Shown: positions 280 to 12,345 of the stretch, one piece after another
Layout: each line of letters starts with the position of its first letter
How positions within the stretch are numbered: position 1 is the first letter of the stretch
NCBI GenBank assembly: GCA_024683115.1
Contig: JAIKYM010000003.1
Coordinates: forward strand, 1-12,345
DNA from: Bacilli bacterium
GTDB taxonomy: Bacteria > Bacillota_I > Bacilli_A > RF39 > UBA660
DNA length: 12,345 nt
Reading direction: 5' to 3'
Made by a program: the position numbers and the translations under genes
The notes under the pieces: generated by a model
Databases searched by the model: none
Told to the model about the DNA's origin: nothing
Seen by the model: only the letters and a program-made list of their open reading frames with translations

Positions 280-288
280 TGATATAAT
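280..288 (+). promoter_or_regulatory. Extended -10 promoter of cassette 1
   Basis: TGATATAAT is a perfect TATAAT (283-288) preceded by the TG of an extended -10. No good -35 box lies 17 bases upstream, as is common with extended -10 promoters. The predicted start near 295 gives a leader of about 35 bases before the ATG at 330. The sequence after the box (TATAATTATTTTAGAAT) resembles that at the two other promoters in this locus. Confidence 0.65.
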
Positions 289-329: not shown

Positions 330-1211
330 ATGGCTAAACTTAAGAAAATAAAAAAAGAGCGTAAGTCATTTAGAAGAGAATATATTCCTTTATTCTTTTC
401 TATTGTTATCCTATGTGGTTTAATAGTTGGACTTGTTGTTATTATTAATAAGAAACCAGATGTTGAACCTGTTGAACAAACTAAAAACACTTTATCTGTT
501 CAAGATATAGATGTTGGTGGTGTCAATGACTATTGTGAAGGATATAATATAGATGAGTATAGGGAAAAAGCTAAAAAAGTATATTTATCTTATGAAGAAA
601 TCGAGAAAATCTATGCTGGAAAAACAGAAAACGTTGATTTGCCTCCAGATGATCCTGATTATTGGATGGATTATTATGTAAGCGGATTAAAAATAAATGT
701 ATTAGGTGCATCACCAGGACTTAGAATTAAAATTATTCTTAATTATAATAGAGTTAATTCGATGAAAGAAAATAAATCATATGAATACTTTGTATATGAG
801 GGTGAAACAGAAGATATGACATTTATTGAAACTGTTTTACTAGAACAAACACCTGTAACTGTTCGTATTTATTTAAACGATGCTGGATGCCCTAATTTAT
901 TATTAAGAGAGTTTACTTTAACACTTCCTAGATATAATACTTTATATGATTATGAATTATGTCATATGGAAAAGTTTAGAAGTGATCCTCAATGTGCTAT
1001 GTATGTTTTTAATGATAATTCGTATAGTGATGATTTAAAGATATTAGAAAAATTTGATAGGAAACTTAATAGTGAGAATAATCAAGAAAATGATGAAGAA
1101 AAAACTAACAAATTAGATATTAAAAATATAGTTATAATTGTTGCTGGAATTGTTTTAGTGGTTGGCGTAGTAATTATTGTAGCGAAAGGAAGAAGAAAAC
1201 ATGAAGAATAA
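330..1211 (+). CDS. Membrane protein with four-cysteine ectodomain (cassette 1)
   Basis: 293 aa. A basic N-terminus (residues 1-17, many Lys/Arg) precedes a membrane segment at about 19-39. An extracytoplasmic domain spans about 42-262, and a second membrane segment at about 267-285 ends in a basic tail (KGRRKHEE). Both ends are therefore probably cytoplasmic. The ectodomain looks beta-rich, with cysteines at 69, 187, 211 and 222 and the motif LLLREFTLTLPRYNTL (190-205); an acidic PDDPD lies at 106-110. The ATG at 330 has AAGGAGG at 315-321. The last 11 bases overlap the start of the next, giant gene, which suggests translational coupling and a partner role. Paralogues are the genes at 5617 and 10390, which share the four cysteines. 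I recognise no known family; an assembly partner or receptor for the exported giant is inference. Confidence 0.85.
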   Translation: MAKLKKIKKERKSFRREYIPLFFSIVILCGLIVGLVVIINKKPDVEPVEQTKNTLSVQDIDVGGVNDYCEGYNIDEYREKAKKVYLSYEEIEKIYAGKTENVDLPPDDPDYWMDYYVSGLKINVLGASPGLRIKIILNYNRVNSMKENKSYEYFVYEGETEDMTFIETVLLEQTPVTVRIYLNDAGCPNLLLREFTLTLPRYNTLYDYELCHMEKFRSDPQCAMYVFNDNSYSDDLKILEKFDRKLNSENNQENDEEKTNKLDIKNIVIIVAGIVLVVGVVIIVAKGRRKHEE

Positions 1212-4200
1212 AGTTTATTTCGTTATAATTGCGTTAATACTTATTGTAGTACCTATCACTTCAAAAGCCGCAGTGGCTTTTACCGGATATGTAAAGATTA
1301 CTCATGAATTTTCTAGTAACGATTTATACTATTTCAAAAAAAATAGTAATACTGGTAAATACGATAGTGCAAATCCTTACCAAGTAAATAGCTATTCTTT
1401 TAAATTTAATAAGAGTGATTCTGTTAGTTATCTAGCGTTTTGCGTAAAACCTGGTTATGGAGCTCATATACTTAGCAATGAAGGATATAATGCTGTTAAG
1501 TGTGAACCAATAAACTATTCTAGTTATTGTTATTCTGGAATTGCTAAATTAGTTGGAAATAGTACAGTAGATATATTTCAGAAGATTGCTAATGGTGAAT
1601 TAACATATCATGGTATGGAATCTATAGATAAATTCAAATACGATTTTATTTTTAGAATAGCGGGTTTAAGTGGCTTTAGAGCTTCAACGACAAATGATAA
1701 TTACAATTCAATGTGGAATACAAAATATAAGTTTGAAGGAAAACAAAATGATAATACTCTTCCAAAAATAGTTTTTGCAGGTGGAACAGTTGGATCAACA
1801 TATTTAGAGGCTGGTAATTATCCATATAGATATTTTAATCCGTATGATCCGTATGAACAATCGCATACCAATCTTTATGGCGAACATGAAACGAGCTTTA
1901 GAATGGTTGAAAGCGCATATCGGAATTTAATTACAAATGCTAAACCTGTTACAAGGACAACTACTGAATCTGGTGCAATTGTTTCAGCTACCGGTTATGG
2001 TACATCAGATACACAAACAGGTAGACAATACAAAATTACGGCTCAAGCTGACCCGGAATTGGAACAAAAACGTGAAGAATATATGAGATTATATAATAGA
2101 TGGTTTTCTGTTAAAGATGAACAAGATCCTTCTCCAGAAAAAGAGTATCTAAGAGGCCAAATAATGAGACTAGGAAATGAAATTAAGAGAACACCAATCA
2201 AGCTTTACGTTTCTCGTAACGATGGAACTTCTACTAGTAATCCTCCTAATTTAAGCGAATTGAATGGTGAACGTTCAGTATGGGATTGGCATGGACGCGA
2301 TGGATTCTTGACAATAACACCTAGTCCTACAAAATGTTGGATCTCATTTAACTTATCAGCAGAATTATCTTCTGGTAGTTCTGAAAAAGCGTTCTATTAT
2401 TGTGCAAATCTAGAGGGTCCTGAAAACCAAGATTTCTTAGTTTATGCACCTAAAACAGTAGATACTGATAAATTTATGTTTAAAACAACTTGTTTACCTG
2501 GTATTTCACATGAAGAAGAAGAGGACGAAATAGAAATAGAAGAAAGAAGATGTGAACCTACGCTTCTACCAACTGAGCCTCATGAAGAATTTGATATTCA
2601 TAATTGCTGTGATGATGCTAAACCAACAACAATTAGACAACGTGAACTTGATGAATTATTTTGTACTTGGATAACTACAACTATTAATGTTAATTTTGCA
2701 GCACCTAGAGAAAATGCAGAAAAATACGAAACAACTGAAGGAACAAATAGTTATTGTAAACAATATTGTGGCTCAACTATTCAATATACTCCGCCTGTAC
2801 CAACTAAAGCTATAGCAGACAGATCGTTTGTGTTTGCTAAAAACCCTTATAGTATAAGTGGAGAAAACTTTGTTGGACCTGAATTATATCAATTTAAGAG
2901 ATGTAGAACAGTTATTGATTTTGATTTGTGGTTTAATCAATATAAGAGCCAAGCTCAATCATTAGTTACTAAATATAATGCATACCAAAATAATATGGCT
3001 AAATATTATGTTTGGTCAGATGCTATAACACATAAACAAAAGGAAACATTTACTATTACATGTACTTGTACAAAAACAACATCGGTAGGTTATACATCTA
3101 CATCAAAATCGTATGACACTCTTTCTACGAAATTAAGTAATACAAGATCAACTAGTATTTCTTCTTGGGTAACTACAGCTTATTCTTCGTCAACAGGAAC
3201 ATATACTATAACTGAAAGTGAATCAAAGACTAAAAATTATGATATTTATACATATAATTTATCGCCTTATATTCCTACTAGAGTATATCCTAAACTAAAG
3301 GTTATTACTGATAGACAAACATATTTAAAATATGCAGATGATGGTACGCATCGAGTATCATTTGGTAATGGTTCTGCTGAGGGTGATAAGGAAAATGAAT
3401 CTTCTACATTAAAGTTCTCTGATAAGAGCGAAGTTGATGCTGCTATGACTGATGCACAAACTTATGTCTTAACATCGGCTTGTTCTGCAGCTGAATCTAG
3501 TGTTAGTACTGATTATAGTAACTTATCCAATTCTTATGGATCAGATGGTGGCTATCCTAAAATTGAATATAACAAGAGCAGTAGTCCATCTATCTCTACT
3601 TCGGGAACACCAGAATGTCATTTTAATTATATTGATGATCCGGTTAATGCTGAAAGCACTAGAGATGGATATTATGGATATGCAACAACATATAGAGAGA
3701 GCTACAATTCAAATTTATCTCAATTTACAACACTTGAAAGCGCATTGAATAAATGTGGTGGAGATTTAAGTACTAATAGTGCACAATCTATTATAGATAG
3801 AGTTAAATTTAAAAGTGAACCTGAATTAGTGTTTACATACAAATATGCGTTCTTAGATGATGCTAATAAGATACAAGATCAAGTAATTAAAATTGATTTT
3901 GAAAAGACAAATGGTGGTAAATGTGTTCAAGAGTTTAAAACATCATTTAATTCGGATCCGCCTGGAACTACTAAATGGTCTGAATTATGGGAATTAAAAG
4001 GATGGCAAGAACAACAATATGATAATAGAACATATGGTAACGGTAATATGTCAATGTATCACATGAATAAAATTGATGCTAACGCTTTAGATAGTGCTGG
4101 CACATCACATCAAAGTGGTTCATATACTGCATCAAAGAAATTTACTACAGACGCAGCTGGATTAATGGAATGTCGTTGGACAGATACTACACAAACAGAA

Positions 4201-4962
4201 TATACAGTTGTTCCATATGGAGTAATTGAAAAAGATGTTAAAGTAGTTAGTTCTACTGGTATAAATAATGGTAATACAATTAAATTGCATAAAGTTGTTA
4301 AAACTCATGCATCCGGTAAGTTTGAAACATACTTTACTTTAAAGAATGTTGCAGATGGTACATTTGATAAAATCTTATCTGAAGCCGGAAGTACTTGCTC
4401 AGGCTACAATGGTAAAGATAGTGAGGGTAATTTAGTTAACTTATCATGCTATCTTGAAGTTGATCAAGAAGGTTCTGAACTATTAGACTGTAGTAAGGAT
4501 GGAATTTATAATTATGGATCATCTACAACTACGGCATGTAAGCCTGTAGTAGCAAAGATGTACTTAGATTATAAAGAAGTAGATCCAAGTCAATTATTCC
4601 CTAATACAGTTTCATATGGATGGAACTGGAAGAGTTCACAAGAAGGACCTACTGTATTAGCTAAGATTCAAGATGACGCTGCAGCTGATAGAACATATTC
4701 ACCAGATAATTTAACTTATTCATTTACGTTAACTCCAAATGATTTGAAAGCTATTAAAGAGTATAATAAGTCAAGAGTTAACTATGGCGGATATACAGAC
4801 TTTAATATGGATTGTACATTAAATGGCAATGCATACGTTAAATGTAAATCTAAATTCTTAACAGCAATTTCTGGAGGTCAAAGCGTTCCTTCTGATAATG
4901 GAAAATCATTAGCTTTATCAACAAGTAACGTTAATATTCAAGAAGTTAGAAATAATTGGTAG
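1201..4962 (+). CDS. Giant secreted cysteine-rich surface protein (cassette 1)
   Basis: 1253 aa with a Sec signal peptide (hydrophobic 5-20, SKA at 21-23, likely cut after A23). The mature protein has 26 cysteines, no LPXTG motif, no lipobox and no C-terminal membrane segment. From the N-terminus: a possible thioester-like segment (LAFCVKPG, C81); a predicted helical stretch at 284-330; a paired-cysteine element C379/C401; an acidic tract at 438-448; a cysteine cluster with HNCC (468-470), LDELFC (483-488) and C519/C523; a Ser/Thr-rich region at 615-678; and a well conserved C-terminal third (about 865-1253). The paralogue at 6449 lacks the helical and acidic parts. The start is supported by AAAGGA at 1185-1190 and the matching start and signal peptide of the paralogue. 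Probably disulfide-bonded and held at the surface by its cassette partners; its function is unknown. Confidence 0.88.
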   Translation: MKNKVYFVIIALILIVVPITSKAAVAFTGYVKITHEFSSNDLYYFKKNSNTGKYDSANPYQVNSYSFKFNKSDSVSYLAFCVKPGYGAHILSNEGYNAVKCEPINYSSYCYSGIAKLVGNSTVDIFQKIANGELTYHGMESIDKFKYDFIFRIAGLSGFRASTTNDNYNSMWNTKYKFEGKQNDNTLPKIVFAGGTVGSTYLEAGNYPYRYFNPYDPYEQSHTNLYGEHETSFRMVESAYRNLITNAKPVTRTTTESGAIVSATGYGTSDTQTGRQYKITAQADPELEQKREEYMRLYNRWFSVKDEQDPSPEKEYLRGQIMRLGNEIKRTPIKLYVSRNDGTSTSNPPNLSELNGERSVWDWHGRDGFLTITPSPTKCWISFNLSAELSSGSSEKAFYYCANLEGPENQDFLVYAPKTVDTDKFMFKTTCLPGISHEEEEDEIEIEERRCEPTLLPTEPHEEFDIHNCCDDAKPTTIRQRELDELFCTWITTTINVNFAAPRENAEKYETTEGTNSYCKQYCGSTIQYTPPVPTKAIADRSFVFAKNPYSISGENFVGPELYQFKRCRTVIDFDLWFNQYKSQAQSLVTKYNAYQNNMAKYYVWSDAITHKQKETFTITCTCTKTTSVGYTSTSKSYDTLSTKLSNTRSTSISSWVTTAYSSSTGTYTITESESKTKNYDIYTYNLSPYIPTRVYPKLKVITDRQTYLKYADDGTHRVSFGNGSAEGDKENESSTLKFSDKSEVDAAMTDAQTYVLTSACSAAESSVSTDYSNLSNSYGSDGGYPKIEYNKSSSPSISTSGTPECHFNYIDDPVNAESTRDGYYGYATTYRESYNSNLSQFTTLESALNKCGGDLSTNSAQSIIDRVKFKSEPELVFTYKYAFLDDANKIQDQVIKIDFEKTNGGKCVQEFKTSFNSDPPGTTKWSELWELKGWQEQQYDNRTYGNGNMSMYHMNKIDANALDSAGTSHQSGSYTASKKFTTDAAGLMECRWTDTTQTEYTVVPYGVIEKDVKVVSSTGINNGNTIKLHKVVKTHASGKFETYFTLKNVADGTFDKILSEAGSTCSGYNGKDSEGNLVNLSCYLEVDQEGSELLDCSKDGIYNYGSSTTTACKPVVAKMYLDYKEVDPSQLFPNTVSYGWNWKSSQEGPTVLAKIQDDAAADRTYSPDNLTYSFTLTPNDLKAIKEYNKSRVNYGGYTDFNMDCTLNGNAYVKCKSKFLTAISGGQSVPSDNGKSLALSTSNVNIQEVRNNW

Positions 4963-4975
4963 GAGGTAAGAAGAA

Positions 4976-5470
4976 ATGAAAGAGAGCATGTGGGGCTATT
5001 GGATAATAGTATTAGGAATCGCAGTATTCGCCATCATGATGGTATTACAAAATTATTCAGTAACAGATGAACAATCATTCTTTTTAGCGAAGGAGAACTT
5101 AGCATCATCAATGAAGGAAGCAGTAGACTATGCGTACTTCACTGATGCTTCTCCTACAATTACAGAAGATAATTATATGAATTCAAATGAAATCTACGGA
5201 AGATTTAAAATAAACAGAGAAAAGTTAGTAGAAAACTTTATAAGAAGATTTGCAGATACAGTAGATATTAGCAAAACATATACAATAAACTTCTACTATA
5301 TATCTGAGATACCACCTGCTGCATCGGTAGAGGTGTTATCTTCAACAGGAAAGACAAACTTCGGAAGCACACAAAATGCTGCATCAGAAGAGATATCAAC
5401 ATCAAGTAGATTTACTGGAATATTATTTACAACAGAAGAATATACACCAGGATTTAATACAGCTGGATAG
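4976..5470 (+). CDS. Small single-pass membrane protein, pilin/TadE-like layout (cassette 1)
   Basis: 164 aa with one membrane segment at about 7-24 very near the N-terminus. A polar, helix-prone stretch with EQ and EA residues (about 30-55) follows, then a probably beta-rich ectodomain containing YYISEIPPAASVEV (107-120) and a Ser/Thr-rich end. It has no cysteines, unlike its partners. A short N-terminus, one hydrophobic helix and an amphipathic continuation recall pseudopilins and TadE-like pilus proteins. There is no canonical prepilin site with Glu at +5, so the resemblance is only architectural. The ATG has AGGAGG at 4961-4966, overlapping the TAG stop of the giant gene, so coupled translation is likely. 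Nearly identical to the copy at 9784, with Met at residue 68 here and Lys there. It is the last gene of the cassette; function unknown. Confidence 0.85.
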   Translation: MKESMWGYWIIVLGIAVFAIMMVLQNYSVTDEQSFFLAKENLASSMKEAVDYAYFTDASPTITEDNYMNSNEIYGRFKINREKLVENFIRRFADTVDISKTYTINFYYISEIPPAASVEVLSSTGKTNFGSTQNAASEEISTSSRFTGILFTTEEYTPGFNTAG

Positions 5471-5476
5471 AAATAT

Positions 5477-5507
5477 AAAAGAAAGACATAAAAGTCTTTC
5501 TTTTTTT
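5477..5507 (+). terminator. Terminator of cassette 1
   Basis: An 11-bp stem (5477-5487 with 5494-5504), a 6-base loop ATAAAA and a run of seven T (5501-5507). It begins 7 bases after the stop codon of the 164-aa gene, and the same hairpin follows the second copy. It separates the two cassettes into distinct transcripts. Confidence 0.88.
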
Positions 5508-5549
5508 GTTAAATATGTGTATTAAATTGTAGTTATTTGACCATAGTTA

Positions 5550-5558
5550 TGCTATAAT
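5550..5558 (+). promoter_or_regulatory. Extended -10 promoter of cassette 2
   Basis: TGCTATAAT, with TATAAT at 5553-5558 and the extended TG at 5550-5551. A TTGACC at 5538-5543 lies too close to serve as a -35 box. The expected start near 5565 gives a leader of about 50 bases. The flanks resemble those of the promoter at 10357-10365 (shared TAGTTATTT upstream and a TAGAATA downstream), so the two share descent or a common regulator. Confidence 0.65.
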
Positions 5559-5616
5559 TTATATAGAATAGTATGATTGAGTACTGGTCTAAGAATAAAC
5601 TTGGGAGGATAGTTAT

Positions 5617-6459
5617 ATGGAGAAGGAAAAAAATAATAAAAAAACTACGAAGGAATTCATACCTTTAGTTATAGCATCTACGATTTTATTATTACTTATT
5701 GTAGCTTTAGTTTATACAATTGTTTATAAACCAAAGATTAGTATTAAGGGTAATATTGAAAATTCATTAAAGACTGATGAATTAGCAATCGGTAATGTCA
5801 CATATGTTTGTGAAGGTAAAGATGTTAATAAACTTAAAGAAGAAGCAAATAATATTGTAGTTGCTTACGAAGAATTAGATAATTACTTCTTAGGTAAGGT
5901 TGAAAACATGGATGCAGATCCAGATGATCCAGATGGTGGATTAAAAGATGCATATGGTTTAGCATTAAGAACTAAGTTCTATGGTATAACTGATGATATT
6001 TATATCAAAGTTAATAATATTACTTTAGATGAACAAGTTACTTTAAAGAAATCAGATGTAACTAAGGATGGATATGCTAAATATGATAAGATTAATAATC
6101 TTCAACAAAATAAAGTAAATGTTAAAGTTTATATTAATGATGATAATTGTTCAAATGTTCTTCTAAGAGAATTCGAAGTTACATTACCTAGATATAATAC
6201 TTTAATTGATTTACCAGTATGTGCTAAGGATGAATATAAGAATACTGAAACATGTAATAAATTTGTATTTAATTCAAACTCATATAAAGAAGATTTAGAA
6301 ATATCTAAAAAAGAAGTTAGTAAAGTAGAAAAGAAAAATGAATCAAATAAAGATAAAAAGAATAGTAGTGTTGGTTATATAATTGCAATAGCTGTAATTG
6401 TAATTGTTGTTGTAATAAGTGTGATGTTATTGAAAGGAAGAATGAAACATGAAAAATAA
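5617..6459 (+). CDS. Membrane protein with four-cysteine ectodomain (cassette 2)
   Basis: 280 aa, a clear paralogue of the 293-aa gene at 330. Lysine-rich N-terminus, membrane segment at about 15-37, ectodomain at about 40-250, a Lys/Asn/Ser-rich linker, a second membrane segment at about 252-272 and a basic tail KGRMKHEK. Cysteines 65, 178, 202 and 213 match 69, 187, 211 and 222 of the paralogue, and LLREFEVTLPRYNTL (182-196) is nearly unchanged. An Asp-rich loop (DADPDDPDGG, 99-108) could bind a cation, but that is speculative. The ATG has GGGAGG at 5603-5608. The last 11 bases overlap the following giant gene exactly as in cassette 1. Function unknown; likely a membrane partner of the giant protein. 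Confidence 0.85.
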   Translation: MEKEKNNKKTTKEFIPLVIASTILLLLIVALVYTIVYKPKISIKGNIENSLKTDELAIGNVTYVCEGKDVNKLKEEANNIVVAYEELDNYFLGKVENMDADPDDPDGGLKDAYGLALRTKFYGITDDIYIKVNNITLDEQVTLKKSDVTKDGYAKYDKINNLQQNKVNVKVYINDDNCSNVLLREFEVTLPRYNTLIDLPVCAKDEYKNTETCNKFVFNSNSYKEDLEISKKEVSKVEKKNESNKDKKNSSVGYIIAIAVIVIVVVISVMLLKGRMKHEK

Positions 6460-9400
6460 ATTGTTTAAATGTTTATTATTGATAATTGTTACATTTATAT
6501 ATACAACAGCTAATGCCGAAACAATTCAGGGTGTAATAAGAGTACCAATTACTGAAGGGTCAAATTACATCTGTTACAATGGTTCATACAAATATCAATA
6601 TCATAAGTATTCATTTACTTTTAAAGATGATACAACTGAATATCCAGCGTTCTGTATTAAACCTGGTGGAAGTTTATTTGTTCAAAATAATAATGGTATC
6701 AATAATGTTGAATGTGAAGTAATGACAAGTGCAGACTTTCCACGTGTATATGCATTAATTCAAGAAGGTGCAAGAATGTGGAATACAACAAGTGATGCCG
6801 ATAGAGATTATTATGATTACTTGTTAAGATTTGCTAGTATCGCTGATAAATATGAAGAATACAATGCAATCTATAATTCAAGTTCAAATAGTAATATGAT
6901 GAGTTTCTTAAATTCTTACAGAAAAGATGTTCTAGGTATGAATATTGGAAACACTACAAAATATTATCGTGACTGTGGTACAGTTGGAGGACCAACTCCA
7001 TATACTAATGCAATTAATAGATTAAAAGAAGTTGAAGAACTTATTAGAAATAATGTTCCAACAAGTGATACACAAATAGGTGGTATTACTATAGCAACTG
7101 GTGATAAGACTTCAATGACAGCTAAAATATTTACACTTAAGTTAGTTGAAGAAACTGAATTAACTGCTACATATGAAGTTACTTCAAATGTACAAGTTAA
7201 TAATATTAAAATAACTACTAGTTCAAATATATCATTCGAATGGGTTACTCCTTGGGATAAAACAAGTGGTAAGTTAAAAATAACTAAAACATCTCCAACA
7301 GTATGTAGTGGAACATTAACACTTGAAGGAGATAATAGTGTAGATAATGCAGCAGTATATTATTGTAAACATACATATTCATCAGAATTCCAAAACTTCG
7401 TTGTTATTGGTCCTGGTGTAACTGCTGATAAATTTAAATTAGAATTTGATTGTACTGGTTGTTCATCTGATGGATGCCAAGCTACAAGACATTATAAAGA
7501 TTTTGATGAAAAAGAAATTCACAATTGTTGTGATGAAGGTGTAACAAAAGTTAGACAAGCAGCATTAGATGAATTATTCTGTGATTACAATTATGATGGT
7601 GTTAAAGTAGATTATTACAAACCTAGATGTAATGCAGAAGAATATGTAACTAATACTCCAAATGAATATTGTAAAGTTTATTGTGGAACTACAGTAATGT
7701 ATAAGATTCCTGGACCTACAAGAGCTCTTGCAGATAGAGAATTCGTATTTAGTACAAAAGTTACTGGATTCGCTGGTCCATTATTAAATCAATACAAGAG
7801 ATGTAGAGTAGTAATTAACTTTGATCAATGGTATCAAGATTATAAAACAAATGTTGATGCATTAGTATCATTCTACAATGATAATCAAAATAATTTAGCA
7901 CAAGCTAAGATGTGGGAAGATATGATTAATGATGCTAAAACTGAAACATTAAATAATTCAGTTACATGTACATCTACATTTAGTTATTCATGTCCAACTC
8001 AAACTGACCCTACAAGAACATGTACAAGTTCAGTTACAAAGACTAAAGCAGTTGAAGTAACAACAATTAATGTTTATCCAACTGATGAATATGGAAATAA
8101 AGATGCTTACTCTTATCCAACATTAAAAGTTGTAGAAGATGGCTCATATAATAGGTTAGAGATTAAGTATGCTGGAAACTTAAAACCTGGAACTGGAATT
8201 AAGTATTATGATGATGATCAAGCTACTGCTTATGAAGCTAAATTTAAATCAGCTATAGATTCTGCTAAGAGTGAAGCTGAAGCAAGTGGTGGAACTGCTC
8301 AAACATTAACAGGTACAAGTTGTACATCTCCAATTGAGTTAGTTCATATTAATGCATCAAATCAAATGAATATGTATAAGAATAATGCTAAACAAGCGTT
8401 AATCAAATACAATAATCAAGTTGATAATATTACTAAGCTTAAAGATTCATTAGATACTTGTGGTGGTAAGACTATTCAATCTGGTCAAAAAGATGCTTCA
8501 AATATCGAAGAATTAGTAAAATTTAAAGGCGAACCTGAAATGGAATTCTCATATACATCTAAATTTATAGATGACTATGGTAATCCTGCTGATCAAGAAT
8601 TAGTTGTACCATTTGAAAAATTTGATGGTGATTCAGAAGGACATTGTGCATCTGAATTTAAGACATCATTTAGTGGTGATACTAAATCTAATAGTAGTGA
8701 AGATTGGAATGAAAATTGGGATAGCATAGGTTGGTTCCCTGATAGATATGATAATAGTAAATATAAAACAGGAACATTAACTATTTACGATGTTGAAAAG
8801 ATTGATGCATCAAGTAATAGAATTGATACATCAAGTACAGCTGTACATCGTTCAAGTTCATATCAACCATATAAAGCAGATAAGAAATTCACAACTGATG
8901 GTGTTAACCATATGACATGTAAGTGGAAAGATAAAGAAGATAATACTGAATATGTAGTAATTCCTTATGGTTATATTGACTATGAACAATCATTACCAAA
9001 TGCAGAGAGATCTACATGTGATCCAAACACTAGTGATTGTACTAGATTTACTGTAACAGATGAACAAGGAATATTACACTATGGTTATAATCATCACATT
9101 CATAAAACATCAGCTGCTGGTAAGTTTGAAACATATTATACATTAAAGAATGTTGCAGATGGAATTATTGATGATGTTATCCATGATGAAGGAAAGACAT
9201 GTTCAGGATATAGTGATATTATAAATTACAATGGTACTCCAGTTAATGCAACATGTTACTTCGAAATCCAAAGAGAAGATTCAGAAATTCTTGATTGTAA
9301 CAGAAAAGAAGTATATTCAATTAAGGATGTTGCTGCTGTAACTTGTGATGGTGATGGAAAGAAAATGTATTTAGATTATAAGGAAGTTGATGCAACTCAA

Positions 9401-9769
9401 TTATTCCCTAATGATGTAACATACGGATGGAACTGGAAGAGCTCACAAGAAGGACCTGCAGTATTAAAGAAGATACAAGATGACGCAAAAGCTGATAGAA
9501 CATATTCACCAGATAATTTAACTTATTCATTCACATTAACTCCAAATGATTTAAGAGCTATTAAAGAATATAATAAGTCAAGAATTAGCTTAGGTGGATA
9601 CACAGACTTCAATATGTATTGTGAAAATGTTAATAATGTTGCAGTAAAATGTAAGTCTAGATTTATTGATGCAATTTCTGGTAAGACACCAATTGAATAC
9701 AATGGAAAGAAATTAGAATTAAAGACTAACAATACGAATATTGATAATGTCCGTTCTAGAGACTGGTAA
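6449..9769 (+). CDS. Giant secreted cysteine-rich surface protein (cassette 2)
   Basis: 1106 aa, paralogue of the 1253-aa protein. Signal peptide with ANA at 21-23, likely cut after A23; the mature part has 31 cysteines and no sorting signal, lipobox or C-terminal anchor. Landmarks shared with the paralogue: PAFCIKPG (C69), paired C286/C306 with VYYC, HNCC (358-361), LDELFC (373-378), YCKVYCG (407-413), QYKRCR (448-453), GKFETYYTLKNVADG (891-905) and YSPDNLTYSFTLTPNDL (1019-1035). It lacks the helical insertion and acidic tract of the 1253-aa protein. The start is set by AAAGGAAG at 6433-6440 and the conserved 11-base overlap with the upstream gene. Bases 9655-9717 recur inverted at the right edge of the window. 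DNA similarity to the paralogue rises towards the 3' end. Function unknown; probably exported and disulfide-stabilised. Confidence 0.88.
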   Translation: MKNKLFKCLLLIIVTFIYTTANAETIQGVIRVPITEGSNYICYNGSYKYQYHKYSFTFKDDTTEYPAFCIKPGGSLFVQNNNGINNVECEVMTSADFPRVYALIQEGARMWNTTSDADRDYYDYLLRFASIADKYEEYNAIYNSSSNSNMMSFLNSYRKDVLGMNIGNTTKYYRDCGTVGGPTPYTNAINRLKEVEELIRNNVPTSDTQIGGITIATGDKTSMTAKIFTLKLVEETELTATYEVTSNVQVNNIKITTSSNISFEWVTPWDKTSGKLKITKTSPTVCSGTLTLEGDNSVDNAAVYYCKHTYSSEFQNFVVIGPGVTADKFKLEFDCTGCSSDGCQATRHYKDFDEKEIHNCCDEGVTKVRQAALDELFCDYNYDGVKVDYYKPRCNAEEYVTNTPNEYCKVYCGTTVMYKIPGPTRALADREFVFSTKVTGFAGPLLNQYKRCRVVINFDQWYQDYKTNVDALVSFYNDNQNNLAQAKMWEDMINDAKTETLNNSVTCTSTFSYSCPTQTDPTRTCTSSVTKTKAVEVTTINVYPTDEYGNKDAYSYPTLKVVEDGSYNRLEIKYAGNLKPGTGIKYYDDDQATAYEAKFKSAIDSAKSEAEASGGTAQTLTGTSCTSPIELVHINASNQMNMYKNNAKQALIKYNNQVDNITKLKDSLDTCGGKTIQSGQKDASNIEELVKFKGEPEMEFSYTSKFIDDYGNPADQELVVPFEKFDGDSEGHCASEFKTSFSGDTKSNSSEDWNENWDSIGWFPDRYDNSKYKTGTLTIYDVEKIDASSNRIDTSSTAVHRSSSYQPYKADKKFTTDGVNHMTCKWKDKEDNTEYVVIPYGYIDYEQSLPNAERSTCDPNTSDCTRFTVTDEQGILHYGYNHHIHKTSAAGKFETYYTLKNVADGIIDDVIHDEGKTCSGYSDIINYNGTPVNATCYFEIQREDSEILDCNRKEVYSIKDVAAVTCDGDGKKMYLDYKEVDATQLFPNDVTYGWNWKSSQEGPAVLKKIQDDAKADRTYSPDNLTYSFTLTPNDLRAIKEYNKSRISLGGYTDFNMYCENVNNVAVKCKSRFIDAISGKTPIEYNGKKLELKTNNTNIDNVRSRDW
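9655..9717 (+). repeat. 63-bp inverted repeat, left arm
   Basis: Identical over 63 bases to the reverse complement of 12283-12345. It lies in the last part of the 1106-aa gene (codons from KSRFIDAISG to about NGKKLE). The match breaks at 9718 on one side and reaches the window edge on the other, so the true repeat may be longer. Confidence 0.9.
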
Positions 9770-9783
9770 GGAGGTAAGAAGAA

Positions 9784-10278
9784 ATGAAAGAGAGCATGTG
9801 GGGCTATTGGATAATAGTATTAGGAATCGCAGTATTCGCCATCATGATGGTATTACAAAATTATTCAGTAACAGATGAACAATCATTCTTCTTAGCGAAG
9901 GAGAACTTAGCATCATCAATGAAGGAAGCAGTAGACTATGCGTACTTCACTGATGCTTCTCCTACAATTACAGAAGATAATTATAAGAATTCAAATGAAA
10001 TCTACGGAAGATTTAAAATAAACAGAGAAAAGTTAGTAGAAAACTTTATAAGAAGATTTGCAGATACAGTAGATATCAGCAAAACATATACAATAAACTT
10101 CTACTATATATCTGAGATACCACCTGCTGCATCGGTAGAGGTGTTATCATCAACAGGAAAGACAAACTTCGGAAGCACACAAAATGCTGCATCAGAAGAG
10201 ATATCAACATCAAGTAGATTTACTGGAATATTATTTACAACAGAAGAATATACACCAGGATTTAATACAGCTGGATAG
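9784..10278 (+). CDS. Small single-pass membrane protein, pilin/TadE-like layout (cassette 2)
   Basis: 164 aa, identical to the product of 4976-5470 except Lys for Met at residue 68 in the ectodomain. Same layout: N-terminal membrane segment, amphipathic stretch, cysteine-free ectodomain. AAGGAGG at 9768-9774 overlaps the TAA stop of the giant gene, so translation is probably coupled. That this protein is unchanged while the giants differ greatly suggests it is a common structural or anchoring component working with either giant, or that gene conversion keeps it uniform. The first is a functional inference, the second a mechanism; both may hold. Confidence 0.85.
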   Translation: MKESMWGYWIIVLGIAVFAIMMVLQNYSVTDEQSFFLAKENLASSMKEAVDYAYFTDASPTITEDNYKNSNEIYGRFKINREKLVENFIRRFADTVDISKTYTINFYYISEIPPAASVEVLSSTGKTNFGSTQNAASEEISTSSRFTGILFTTEEYTPGFNTAG

Positions 10279-10285
10279 AAATATG

Positions 10286-10315
10286 AAAGAAAGACATAAA
10301 AGTCTTTCTTTTTTT
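10286..10315 (+). terminator. Terminator of cassette 2
   Basis: A 10-bp stem (10286-10295 with 10302-10311), loop ATAAAA, and seven T at 10309-10315. It is the copy of the hairpin at 5477-5507; one base change shortens the stem by a pair. Confidence 0.88.
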
Positions 10316-10356: not shown

Positions 10357-10365
10357 TGTTATAAT
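10357..10365 (+). promoter_or_regulatory. Extended -10 promoter of the 240-aa gene
   Basis: TGTTATAAT, with TATAAT at 10360-10365. Flanks resemble the cassette 2 promoter. The expected start near 10372 leaves a leader of only about 18 bases, with GGGG at 10379-10382 as the only Shine-Dalgarno-like element before the ATG at 10390. Confidence 0.6.
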
Positions 10366-10389: not shown

Positions 10390-11112
10390 ATGAATAAGAT
10401 AATTAGAAATATTTTATTGATAATACTTACAATTGTTTTAATACCTACTGCAAAAGCTGCTACTACATGTGATTATAAGTTTAGAGCAGAAGTTGGTAAA
10501 ATTGCTAAGAATGTATCAGTATCATATGAAGTAAAAACTGATGATCAAGGTAATGAGTATTTTGCATTTTCTATTTATAATGTTGTAGATGGTATATATG
10601 TAACTGCTTCTAGTGAGGGTGATCAATTAGGAAATGTAAGCTTTAATGCTTTCCCTGAAGATGCGGACGAAAATGGTATTTATACTTTTGTTTCTTACAA
10701 TACATTTGATATTATGAAGTATAATTTTAAGATTTATTCTTTAAATTCTGAATGTACTTCGTCTTTAAGATCTTTTTCGATAACTAAACCTATGTATAAT
10801 AAGTTTTCTGAATTAGAAGAATGTAAATTCTATGGTGTAGAAGATTACTTCTATTGTCAAAAGTGGATAACTAGCTCAATAAATTTATCTGAAACAGCAG
10901 TTAAAGAAAAAATAGAAAATCAAAGAAAAAATAATAATAAAACTGTAACAACTAAATGTATTTCTTGTGAAGAAAATGCTGAAATAAGTGCTAAGTTAGC
11001 TAGATTCAATAAGATTAAGAAATACATAATAATTGGTTTATCAGTAGGTATTGTTGTTGATATCGCATTTATTATATTCTTAATAATTAGAATTAAGAGA
11101 GATACTATTTAA
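10390..11112 (+). CDS. Signal-peptide, C-anchored member of the four-cysteine ectodomain family
   Basis: 240 aa. Signal peptide with AKA at 21-23, ectodomain at about 24-205, a membrane segment at about 212-233 and a short basic tail, so type I topology with the N-terminus outside. The ectodomain aligns with those of the 293- and 280-aa proteins: C27, C122, C145 and C156 match their four cysteines, the last pair spaced Cx10C in all three, and SLRSFSITKPMYNKF (125-139) matches LLLREFTLTLPRYNTL. An additional KCISC (189-193) sits just before the membrane. It has its own promoter and terminator and no giant gene after it, so it could be a stand-alone partner or the stub of a third cassette. The ribosome binding site is weak (GGGG at 10379-10382). 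Function unknown. Confidence 0.85.
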   Translation: MNKIIRNILLIILTIVLIPTAKAATTCDYKFRAEVGKIAKNVSVSYEVKTDDQGNEYFAFSIYNVVDGIYVTASSEGDQLGNVSFNAFPEDADENGIYTFVSYNTFDIMKYNFKIYSLNSECTSSLRSFSITKPMYNKFSELEECKFYGVEDYFYCQKWITSSINLSETAVKEKIENQRKNNNKTVTTKCISCEENAEISAKLARFNKIKKYIIIGLSVGIVVDIAFIIFLIIRIKRDTI

Positions 11113-12134: not shown

Positions 12135-12345
12135 TCATTGAGTTGTATTTTTTGTTGCAATAGTAAGTATGTCATTTATATCTTTGAATACTTCCGTTTC
12201 GCTTTCATTAGTATTAAGCGTATTAATAAGAATGTTTTTATTATTATATTTACCGCTGTAAATATTATTGTTAATAATTAAATCTAATTTCTTTCCATTG
12301 TATTCAATTGGTGTCTTACCAGAAATTGCATCAATAAATCTAGAC
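12135..12345 (-). CDS. 3' end of a giant-protein paralogue with a different C-terminal tail (partial)
   Basis: Reading the minus strand from the window edge gives 69 residues and a TGA stop (complement of 12135-12137), followed at once by TAA. The first part (SRFIDAISGKTPIEYNGKKL) equals residues 1070-1089 of the 1106-aa protein, and the DNA is identical for 63 bases. It then leaves the paralogue: instead of ELKTNNTNIDNVRSRDW it continues DLIINNNIYSGKY and ends ILTIATKNTTQ, about 30 residues longer. The rest lies outside the window, so this may be a full third giant gene, a truncated copy, or a product of recombination or misassembly. No 164-aa gene follows it, unlike in the two cassettes. 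The reading frame is secure; the identity of the gene beyond the shared part is not. Confidence 0.65.
   Translation of the reverse strand, partial: SRFIDAISGKTPIEYNGKKLDLIINNNIYSGKYNNKNILINTLNTNESETEVFKDINDILTIATKNTTQ
12283..12345 (-). repeat. 63-bp inverted repeat, right arm
   Basis: The reverse complement is identical to 9655-9717. It reaches the last base of the window, so its full length is unknown. The 2565 bases between the arms hold the second 164-aa gene, the 240-aa gene and ldh. Confidence 0.9.

Follow-up and report, generated by a model that had tools for sequence, protein, structure and literature searches.

Positions 330-10278 of a 12,345-nt window, the whole of contig C38 from a Bacilli genome (G000; 1.04 Mb in 180 contigs, 87.8% complete), carry one gene trio twice, in the order Fs, giant, small pilin-like DUF5411, terminator; Fs is our name for the membrane protein that opens each trio, and giant for the large Cys-rich protein encoded by the second gene. 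In most relatives examined, the trio heads a Tad-like operon; in the window's genome, the machinery resides at other loci. DUF5411 begins with an N-terminal signature common to the pilin-like proteins of the system. In the window and at four loci like it, the giants diverge, yet the paralogous DUF5411 genes show concerted evolution. We think it probable (about 0.58) that the trios are interchangeable tip (surface) modules of one Tad-like type IVc pilus, a role that we infer from sequence. The first-pass annotation of this DNA had proposed an undescribed surface system, a claim that is not supported, given the operon headed by the trio in most relatives examined and a related operon predicted earlier (PMC9523054). 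Since that study has already published an operon with CpaF, GspF and DUF5411 as a predicted secretion system, the trio looks like a variation on known Tad-like machinery, not an undescribed stand-alone system.

The Gene Trio

330..1211, + strand: Fs1, 293 aa; N-terminal and C-terminal transmembrane (TM) helices (by eye), Cys4 ectodomain; Fs family alignment
1201..4962, + strand: giant 1, 1253 aa, 26 Cys; signal peptide (by eye); N-terminal Cys motif AFCVKPG
4976..5470, + strand: DUF5411 copy 1, 164 aa; PF17424, E 1.6e-36, 125.7 bits; pilin-like, proposed adaptor
5477..5504, + strand: terminator-like hairpin after DUF5411 copy 1 (hairpin scan)
5617..6459, + strand: Fs2, 280 aa; Fs family alignment
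6449..9769, + strand: giant 2, 1106 aa, 32 Cys; signal peptide (by eye); N-terminal Cys motif AFCIKPG
9784..10278, + strand: DUF5411 copy 2, 164 aa; PF17424, 125.2 bits; 491/495 nt identical to copy 1
10285..10312, + strand: terminator-like hairpin after DUF5411 copy 2 (hairpin scan)

The gene coordinates, with a terminator-like hairpin after each trio, bear out the repeated order that the first-pass annotation had noticed, and the spacing is conserved as it had said: Fs and giant overlap by 11 nt in both trios, and the gap between giant and DUF5411 is 13 nt in trio 1 and 14 nt in trio 2. The giants are Cys-rich and do differ widely, being 42% identical overall and 29% identical over the first 300 residues. 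We assigned the signal peptides and TM helices of the window proteins by eye. The opinion that none of the products belongs to a named family survives in part: the small proteins are DUF5411 (PF17424; 125.7 and 125.2 bits against a curated cut-off of 30 bits), while no Pfam or NCBIfam model exceeds its cut-off on the Fs proteins and giants of the window. Likewise, a characterised system is matched by the machinery and not by the window giants and Fs. The near-identity of the two small genes (491/495 nt) and a third Fs gene (10390-11112) had been overlooked.

A Tad-Like Operon Adjoins the Trio in Most Relatives Examined

The best 80 of 378 relatives from a species-genome scan yielded 78 loci with 86 DUF5411 genes. 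We split these loci after the fact into nine of the window's genus plus five similar ones (L099-L103) and the rest, and give the counts for the rest in parentheses. Of 77 cases with enough room, 53 have CpaB no more than 1.5 kb downstream of DUF5411 (53/61); likewise, 50 of 70 have CpaF no more than 3.5 kb away (50/56). An open reading frame (ORF) of at least 400 aa lies directly upstream of DUF5411 in 70 of 78 cases (56/62), in L166 as a DUF5411 fusion, and is itself preceded by Fs in 47 of 62 (41/49). The trio recurs across the taxonomic family, and the earlier view that its products form a unit suggestive of a surface assembly is supported.

In relatives, the operon runs CpaB, CpaF, TadB, TadC and then, among the 32 operons with 4.5 kb after TadC, a Flp-like (24/32), a TadE-like (23/32) and a TadZ-like (22/32) gene; 60 complete Flp-like major-pilin candidates are present across the 78 loci. 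For CpaF, the Pfam model T2SSE scores 99.6 bits in L045 and 92.1 in the window's genome; RcpC/CpaB scores 31.1 bits in the window's genome and 27.7, just below the cut-off of 28.8, in L045. The Flp- and TadE-like proteins are short and middle-sized, with one N-terminal TM helix, and are encoded at the expected position. CpaB/RcpC and the CpaF ATPase are shared with the Tad/Flp (type IVc) pilus, as its components are given in PMC10191384; so too, judged by order, length and topology, are two platform-like proteins and, in 22-24 of the 32 operons, the Flp-, TadE- and TadZ-like genes. Unlike that pilus, the system described here has no secretin (0/11 genomes of the window's genus) and no GxxxxE motif in its pilin-like proteins; it has DUF5411, giant and Fs in addition, and its machinery is split over several loci in the window's genus.

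The Machinery in the Window's Genus

All 11 genomes of the genus have a CpaB-CpaB-CpaF-TadB-TadC locus apart from the cassette, with a T2SSE match of ~90 bits beside CpaB and TadB (11/11, contig C103 of G000 included); a second, stronger PilB-like T2SSE match lies elsewhere in 10/11. Another machinery locus contains TadE-Flp-TadE-TadZ and, in most of the stretches fetched, a VirB2-like gene. Loss of Flp, TadE and TadZ from the genus, considered when they were absent from the CpaB-TadC locus, was rejected because the genes were found at this other locus; TadE-like genes are present in 10/11 genomes. In the window's genome, the machinery is distributed over contig C103 and two short contigs, C22 and C145, with one part on each of these two. 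Peptidase_A24 (prepilin peptidase) is found in 9/11 genomes, in two of them beside a gene read as PilC-like, and need not be a dedicated TadV; G009 (70% complete) and the window's G000 (88% complete) gave no match. None of the 11 genomes has a secretin (RcpA), which is not expected in a one-membrane cell; hence we call the setting Tad-like.

Two observations concern the surroundings of these loci. At L037 and L038 (G002 and G007), a prepilin peptidase gene and a gene read as PilC-like adjoin the cassette, and a second, T4a-like pilus system may be present there. At L093 (1416-7190; G006), TadC and a SufS-like gene flank the gene for a 1923-aa protein that has DUF6273 and seven Listeria-Bacteroides (InlB-type) repeats; this protein may be the counterpart of the "cell invasion domain" protein in the operon description of PMC9523054.

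If the machine is encoded elsewhere, does the trio belong to it at all? The trio could be an independent Fs-anchored surface complex that lies near the Tad operon through ancestral linkage, with no functional tie, an idea to which the lack of linkage to CpaB in this genus and L099-L103 and the Fs-giant pairs without DUF5411 (L211, L212, L213) lend some weight. However, the presence or absence of DUF5411 tracks that of TadB in 58 of 60 relatives, where DUF5411 (over cut-off) and TadB occur together in 33, neither in 25 (one of which, G041, has a sub-threshold DUF5411 match) and DUF5411 alone in 2. In both exceptions (G028, G031), the contig breaks off within 440 nt of DUF5411, in the direction in which CpaB would be expected. 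The pilin start signature of DUF5411 (see below) likewise argues against an independent complex, which we regard as highly improbable.

Among the same 60 relatives, DUF5411 scores over its cut-off in 35 of the 37 genomes of the window's taxonomic family, mostly in single copy, and in none of the 23 outside it, which gave one sub-threshold match. In a phylum-wide sample, it does so in 11 of 295 genomes, all of the same family, with three others sub-threshold. L225, L226 and L227, from other families of the class, contain sub-threshold matches (20.7-21.5 bits) in frames of 414 to 676 aa. The closest DUF5411 records come from uncultured metagenome-assembled genomes called Bacilli, Bacillales, Erysipelotrichales, Tenericutes, Firmicutes or Clostridiales, several of them labelled as rumen or other gut samples.

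In four loci of other genera (L045, L046, L051, L053), VirB2-like, TrbL-like, PrgI-like and VirB4-like genes come after the Tad-like operon; these names, typical of type IV secretion systems (T4SS), rest on weak Pfam matches and our own reading (TrbL_4 scores 29.0 bits in L051, with a cut-off of 27, and 19.4 bits, below it, in L045). VirB2-like, TrbL_4 and VirB4-like genes in several such loci would suit a mating or DNA-transfer apparatus made up by the whole locus, with the giants as mating-pair adhesins. We hold this to be highly improbable: the presence of DUF5411 in nearly every family genome, mostly once, argues against a mobile element; 72,556 plasmid records contain no match to DUF5411 copy 1, the one query used, nor 50,697 phage records to giant 2, again the one query; and, in the stretches fetched from the window's genus, the VirB2-like gene beside TadZ is the sole T4SS-like gene found.

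DUF5411 Resembles the Pilin-Like Proteins of the System

An M-[KR]-[ED] start followed by one TM helix characterizes 73 of 86 DUF5411, 53 of 60 Flp-like and 48 of 63 TadE-like proteins, while 6 of 392 other complete ORFs of at least 100 aa have such a start; in the other families of the trio and operon, it is seen in Fs (1/93) and not in CpaB (0/67), TadB (0/49), TadC (0/46) or giants (0/41). As members within one family are not independent, this is to be read as a likeness of three families. Could a longer leader be hidden upstream? This is unlikely, because GGAGG precedes both DUF5411 starts in the window.

Some DUF5411 proteins are extended: 12 of 86 reach at least 200 aa. Eight of these, together with two from earlier loci, were scanned for domains, revealing Peptidase_M15 in four of the ten (L046, L054, L166, L171; L054 additionally has SH3_3), C39_2 in L115, and Big_2 with a sub-threshold YkuD in L140; the remaining 4/10 show no recognised extra domain. 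A path-opening role for wall-hydrolase-type domains is plausible because, in Streptococcus sanguinis, a wall hydrolase increases the extracellular level of a competence pilin, as stated in the cited part of PMC13192262.

One Proposed Adaptor, Several Giants

Genomes of the genus have 1 to 3 giants (the single giant of G003 is a contig-end fragment) vs one TadB. Fs-giant pairs without an adjacent DUF5411 occur at unlinked places (L211 and L212 in G008, L213 in G006), and the second giant of G005 lacks a DUF5411 gene, unlike that of its near relative G009. This copy-number pattern is consistent with a shared adaptor.

DUF5411 is present twice at ten loci, one of them the window; at six of the ten, the two copies are 99.0-100% identical in DNA. 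At five of these six homogenised loci, a giant precedes each copy, and the giants are 34-52% identical in protein; at the sixth (L152), the copies are direct neighbors. In all six loci, similarity extends no farther than 80 nt upstream of the start codon and about 50 nt past the gene. Homogenisation is not universal, since L129 and L161, with giants 47% and 43% identical, have DUF5411 copies 80% and 90% identical. How old are the cassettes? The cleanest test comes from L101 and L103, whose giants pair as orthologues (42.7% and 66.0% identity, vs 33-34% for the crossed pairs), so the cassette duplication predates the split between these genomes; their DUF5411 genes are 99.3% and 100% identical within a genome and about 78.5% between genomes. 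The simplest cause of this pattern would be gene conversion. Identical DUF5411 copies form direct repeats flanking an Fs-giant pair and could, we suggest, serve in the loss or exchange of cassettes. An assembly artefact was considered as the cause of identical copies; the window copies differ at 4 of 495 positions, and strongly differing copies should not assemble as identical, though an artefact is conceivable for the 100%-identical pairs.

The main rival to a tip module, itself rather unlikely, starts from the same machine. Here the Tad-like apparatus would be a secretion system resembling the type II system, in which a short pseudopilus of DUF5411 and TadE/Flp-like proteins pushes the folded giant through the wall; the giant would be released or wall-bound, and there would be no tip. 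The classing of the operon with CpaF, GspF and DUF5411 as secretion-related in the cited part of PMC9523054 speaks for it, as do the giants, which appear Sec-exported, Cys-rich and large; with no secretin in the 11 genus genomes, a wall-spanning pseudopilus would suffice, and 8 of 32 operons have no Flp- or TadE-like gene after TadC. However, the Flp-like major-pilin candidates, at 60 complete in 78 loci, are common enough to favor a filament over a pseudopilus, and a DUF5411 homogenised next to diverging giants suits an adaptor equally well or better than it does a secretion pseudopilus.

Giants and Fs Proteins

Where do the giants vary? In an alignment of 32 giants, numbered by giant-2 residues and with a Cys counted as kept when present in 90% of rows, mean pairwise identity is 16.8% over residues 1-330 (no kept Cys), 26.3% over 331-550 (four), 18.2% over 551-830 (one) and 28.3% over 831-1106 (five); variability is thus highest in the N-terminal part, with the middle close behind. 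One of the 32 matches NlpC/P60 (E 6.8e-8), and none matches a von Willebrand factor A (vWA) domain at E 0.1. The Cys4 ectodomain noticed in the first-pass annotation proves real, since four Cys, along with one Asn, are invariant in 60 aligned Fs proteins. On Fs2, EssA falls short of the Pfam cut-off (24.0 vs 24.1 bits) and of the NCBIfam cut-off (23.9 vs 32.45 bits), and was set aside as a likeness of charged TM tails, the match being confined to residues 220-270 and to the model's end. A PDB sequence search with profiles of the giant N-terminus, Fs, giant and DUF5411, plus one single N-terminus, returned no credible relative.

An N-terminal motif around [YF]C[ILVM][DES]P, found in 61 of 89 giants, resembles the thioester domain (TED; PF08341/PF20610) of known adhesins. 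TED_2 matches 4 and TED 1 of 60 giant N-termini at E <= 1, with a best value of about 0.002. Compared with the TED profile, the giant N-terminus gives P 3.9e-4 and a probability of 36%, vs 0.56-0.92 for five controls; the N-terminal set was picked by a motif containing the Cys, which makes the invariance of that residue true by construction and biases the profile comparison in the same direction. The giants differ from TED adhesins in two respects: (i) the matches in the two members inspected, near the Cys motif, score 18.4 and 16.9 bits against a curated cut-off of 27; and (ii) the partner Gln, judged by eye, is not conserved, being present in L100, L101, L103, L132 and L155 and replaced by Asp in the window giants, neither of which matches TED. 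TED_2 also matches 17 of 117 family genomes, over the cut-off in 2, and in at least G013 and G020 on contigs other than those of DUF5411. We keep a thioester adhesin as a lead only.

Tips for a Tad-Like Pilus?

The closest parallel to interchangeable tip modules comes from the Kil system of Myxococcus xanthus, where, by the account in the cited part of PMC12075869, a single Tad pilus is served by four tip gene clusters, not all of which lie near the machine; each tip is a heterotrimer of pilin-fold (TadEFG-like) proteins in which a large subunit bears a variable exposed domain and a small adaptor pilin couples tip and filament. The likeness is one of description and would extend from the several tip clusters per Tad pilus to the variable domain of the large subunit and the small adaptor; the giant differs from Kil tips in having a signal peptide, no recognised pilin domain and a membrane partner of its own, Fs. 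On the most likely reading, the trios would work like Kil tips. A different tip subunit has been proposed for Tad pili in CpaL/TadG, a minor pilin whose exposed domain is a vWA domain, according to the cited part of PMC12607857; the 32 giants show no match to it, as noted above. The operon predicted in PMC9523054, reported there for Roseburia, Ruminococcus and Eubacterium, has 8-9 genes and shares CpaF, PilC/GspF and DUF5411 with ours; it also includes a protein remotely similar to Internalin-B, and its section 10 makes no mention of giants, Fs, duplicated cassettes or homogenised DUF5411. The cassettes were likewise not described among the matches listed by literature searches on Tad with giants, CpaL, Gram-positive Tad, RF39 pili, hydrolase-linked pilins, and thioester with Tad; RF39 is the GTDB order of the window's family.

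How would such a tip be built? DUF5411, as a leaderless minor pilin, would prime the filament and couple the giant to it. The giant, exported by Sec, would cap the end of the filament, docking through its better conserved regions and exposing its variable N-terminal region; this docking is a guess, because the giants show no pilin domain. Fs could act as a membrane-held chaperone or holder of the giant before assembly, and CpaF with TadB/TadC would push the tip through the cell wall, where wall-hydrolase-type domains on some DUF5411 proteins or giants might open the path or act on a neighbor's wall. With two or three giants, a cell could present different tips on one machine; interchangeable modules would let pilus contacts change without a change of the machine.

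Several findings weigh against such tips:
(i) CpaB lies downstream of DUF5411 in 0/16 cases with room in the window's genus and L099-L103, so that cassette and machinery are unlinked there, and 8 of 32 operons in relatives have neither a Flp- nor a TadE-like gene after TadC.
(ii) The names TadB, TadC, TadE-, TadZ- and Flp-like derive from order, length and topology, and the proteins scanned matched no Tad model (no T2SSF match in three TadB/TadC-type proteins, two adjacent membrane proteins being found at the expected place, and no TadE Pfam match in two TadE-like proteins).
(iii) GxxxxE, the usual prepilin motif, is absent from the first 32 residues of 85 of 86 DUF5411 proteins and of all 60 Flp-like and 63 TadE-like ones.
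(iv) DUF5411 is not supported as a full-length TadE homologue (the profiles align over only the first 20 columns, with a probability of 11.6%), its profile does not align with that of Flp-like proteins, and the giants show no pilin domain.
(v) At 4 of the 10 duplicated loci, DUF5411 copies share only 77-90% identity in DNA.
(vi) The co-occurrence of DUF5411 and TadB ignores kinship, all positives belonging to one taxonomic family.

Tip modules nevertheless remain our preferred reading. If it is true, a Pfam family of unknown function would gain a concrete role, two unnamed families would be tied to a known machine, and interchangeable Tad-pilus tips, shown in Myxococcus (PMC12075869, cited part), would have a parallel in one-membrane Bacilli that are uncultured and known through metagenomes. 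The part most likely to surprise a specialist is an invariant adaptor amid diverging giants; concerted evolution leads to the prediction that DUF5411 serves as a constant socket and that the giants are its exchangeable heads. A further question is how pilin-like proteins that lack the usual leader motif are processed. A broader picture, offered tentatively and more doubtful than the tip role, is that of tip-swapping cassettes in one-membrane bacteria: a Tad machine with leaderless pilins, one DUF5411 adaptor kept identical by gene conversion, and fast-diverging giants, with wall-hydrolase-type or thioester-like domains in some lineages, might cross the cell's own wall or attack or grip neighbors and host surfaces.

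Other Features of the Window

280..288, + strand: extended -10 motif TGATATAAT, upstream of Fs1
5550..5558, + strand: extended -10 motif TGCTATAAT, upstream of Fs2
10357..10365, + strand: extended -10 motif TGTTATAAT, upstream of Fs3
10390..11112, + strand: Fs3, third Fs family member, 240 aa; signal-peptide type; Fs family alignment
12135..12345, - strand: 3' end of a putative third giant, the gene cut by the contig end; inverted repeat; clusters with giants

Promoters, too, had been called conserved. A general promoter scan of the window found no excess over shuffles (59 vs a mean of 86.6). The extended -10 motif TGNTATAAT does stand upstream of both Fs genes of the trios, and three of its four matches in the window precede the three Fs genes (280, 5550, 10357); the count itself is matched by 55 of 200 shuffles, which likewise reach 4, so only the placement is telling. 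Downstream of Fs3 lies an L-lactate dehydrogenase gene. The third-giant fragment (12135-12345), which stops at the contig end, forms an 80-nt inverted repeat with 9655-9734 at 95% identity; it clusters with the giants yet falls below the threshold of the giant profile (A3), and its final residues are unlike those of both window giants. It may be a partial donor copy, an inversion site or a contig-end chimera.

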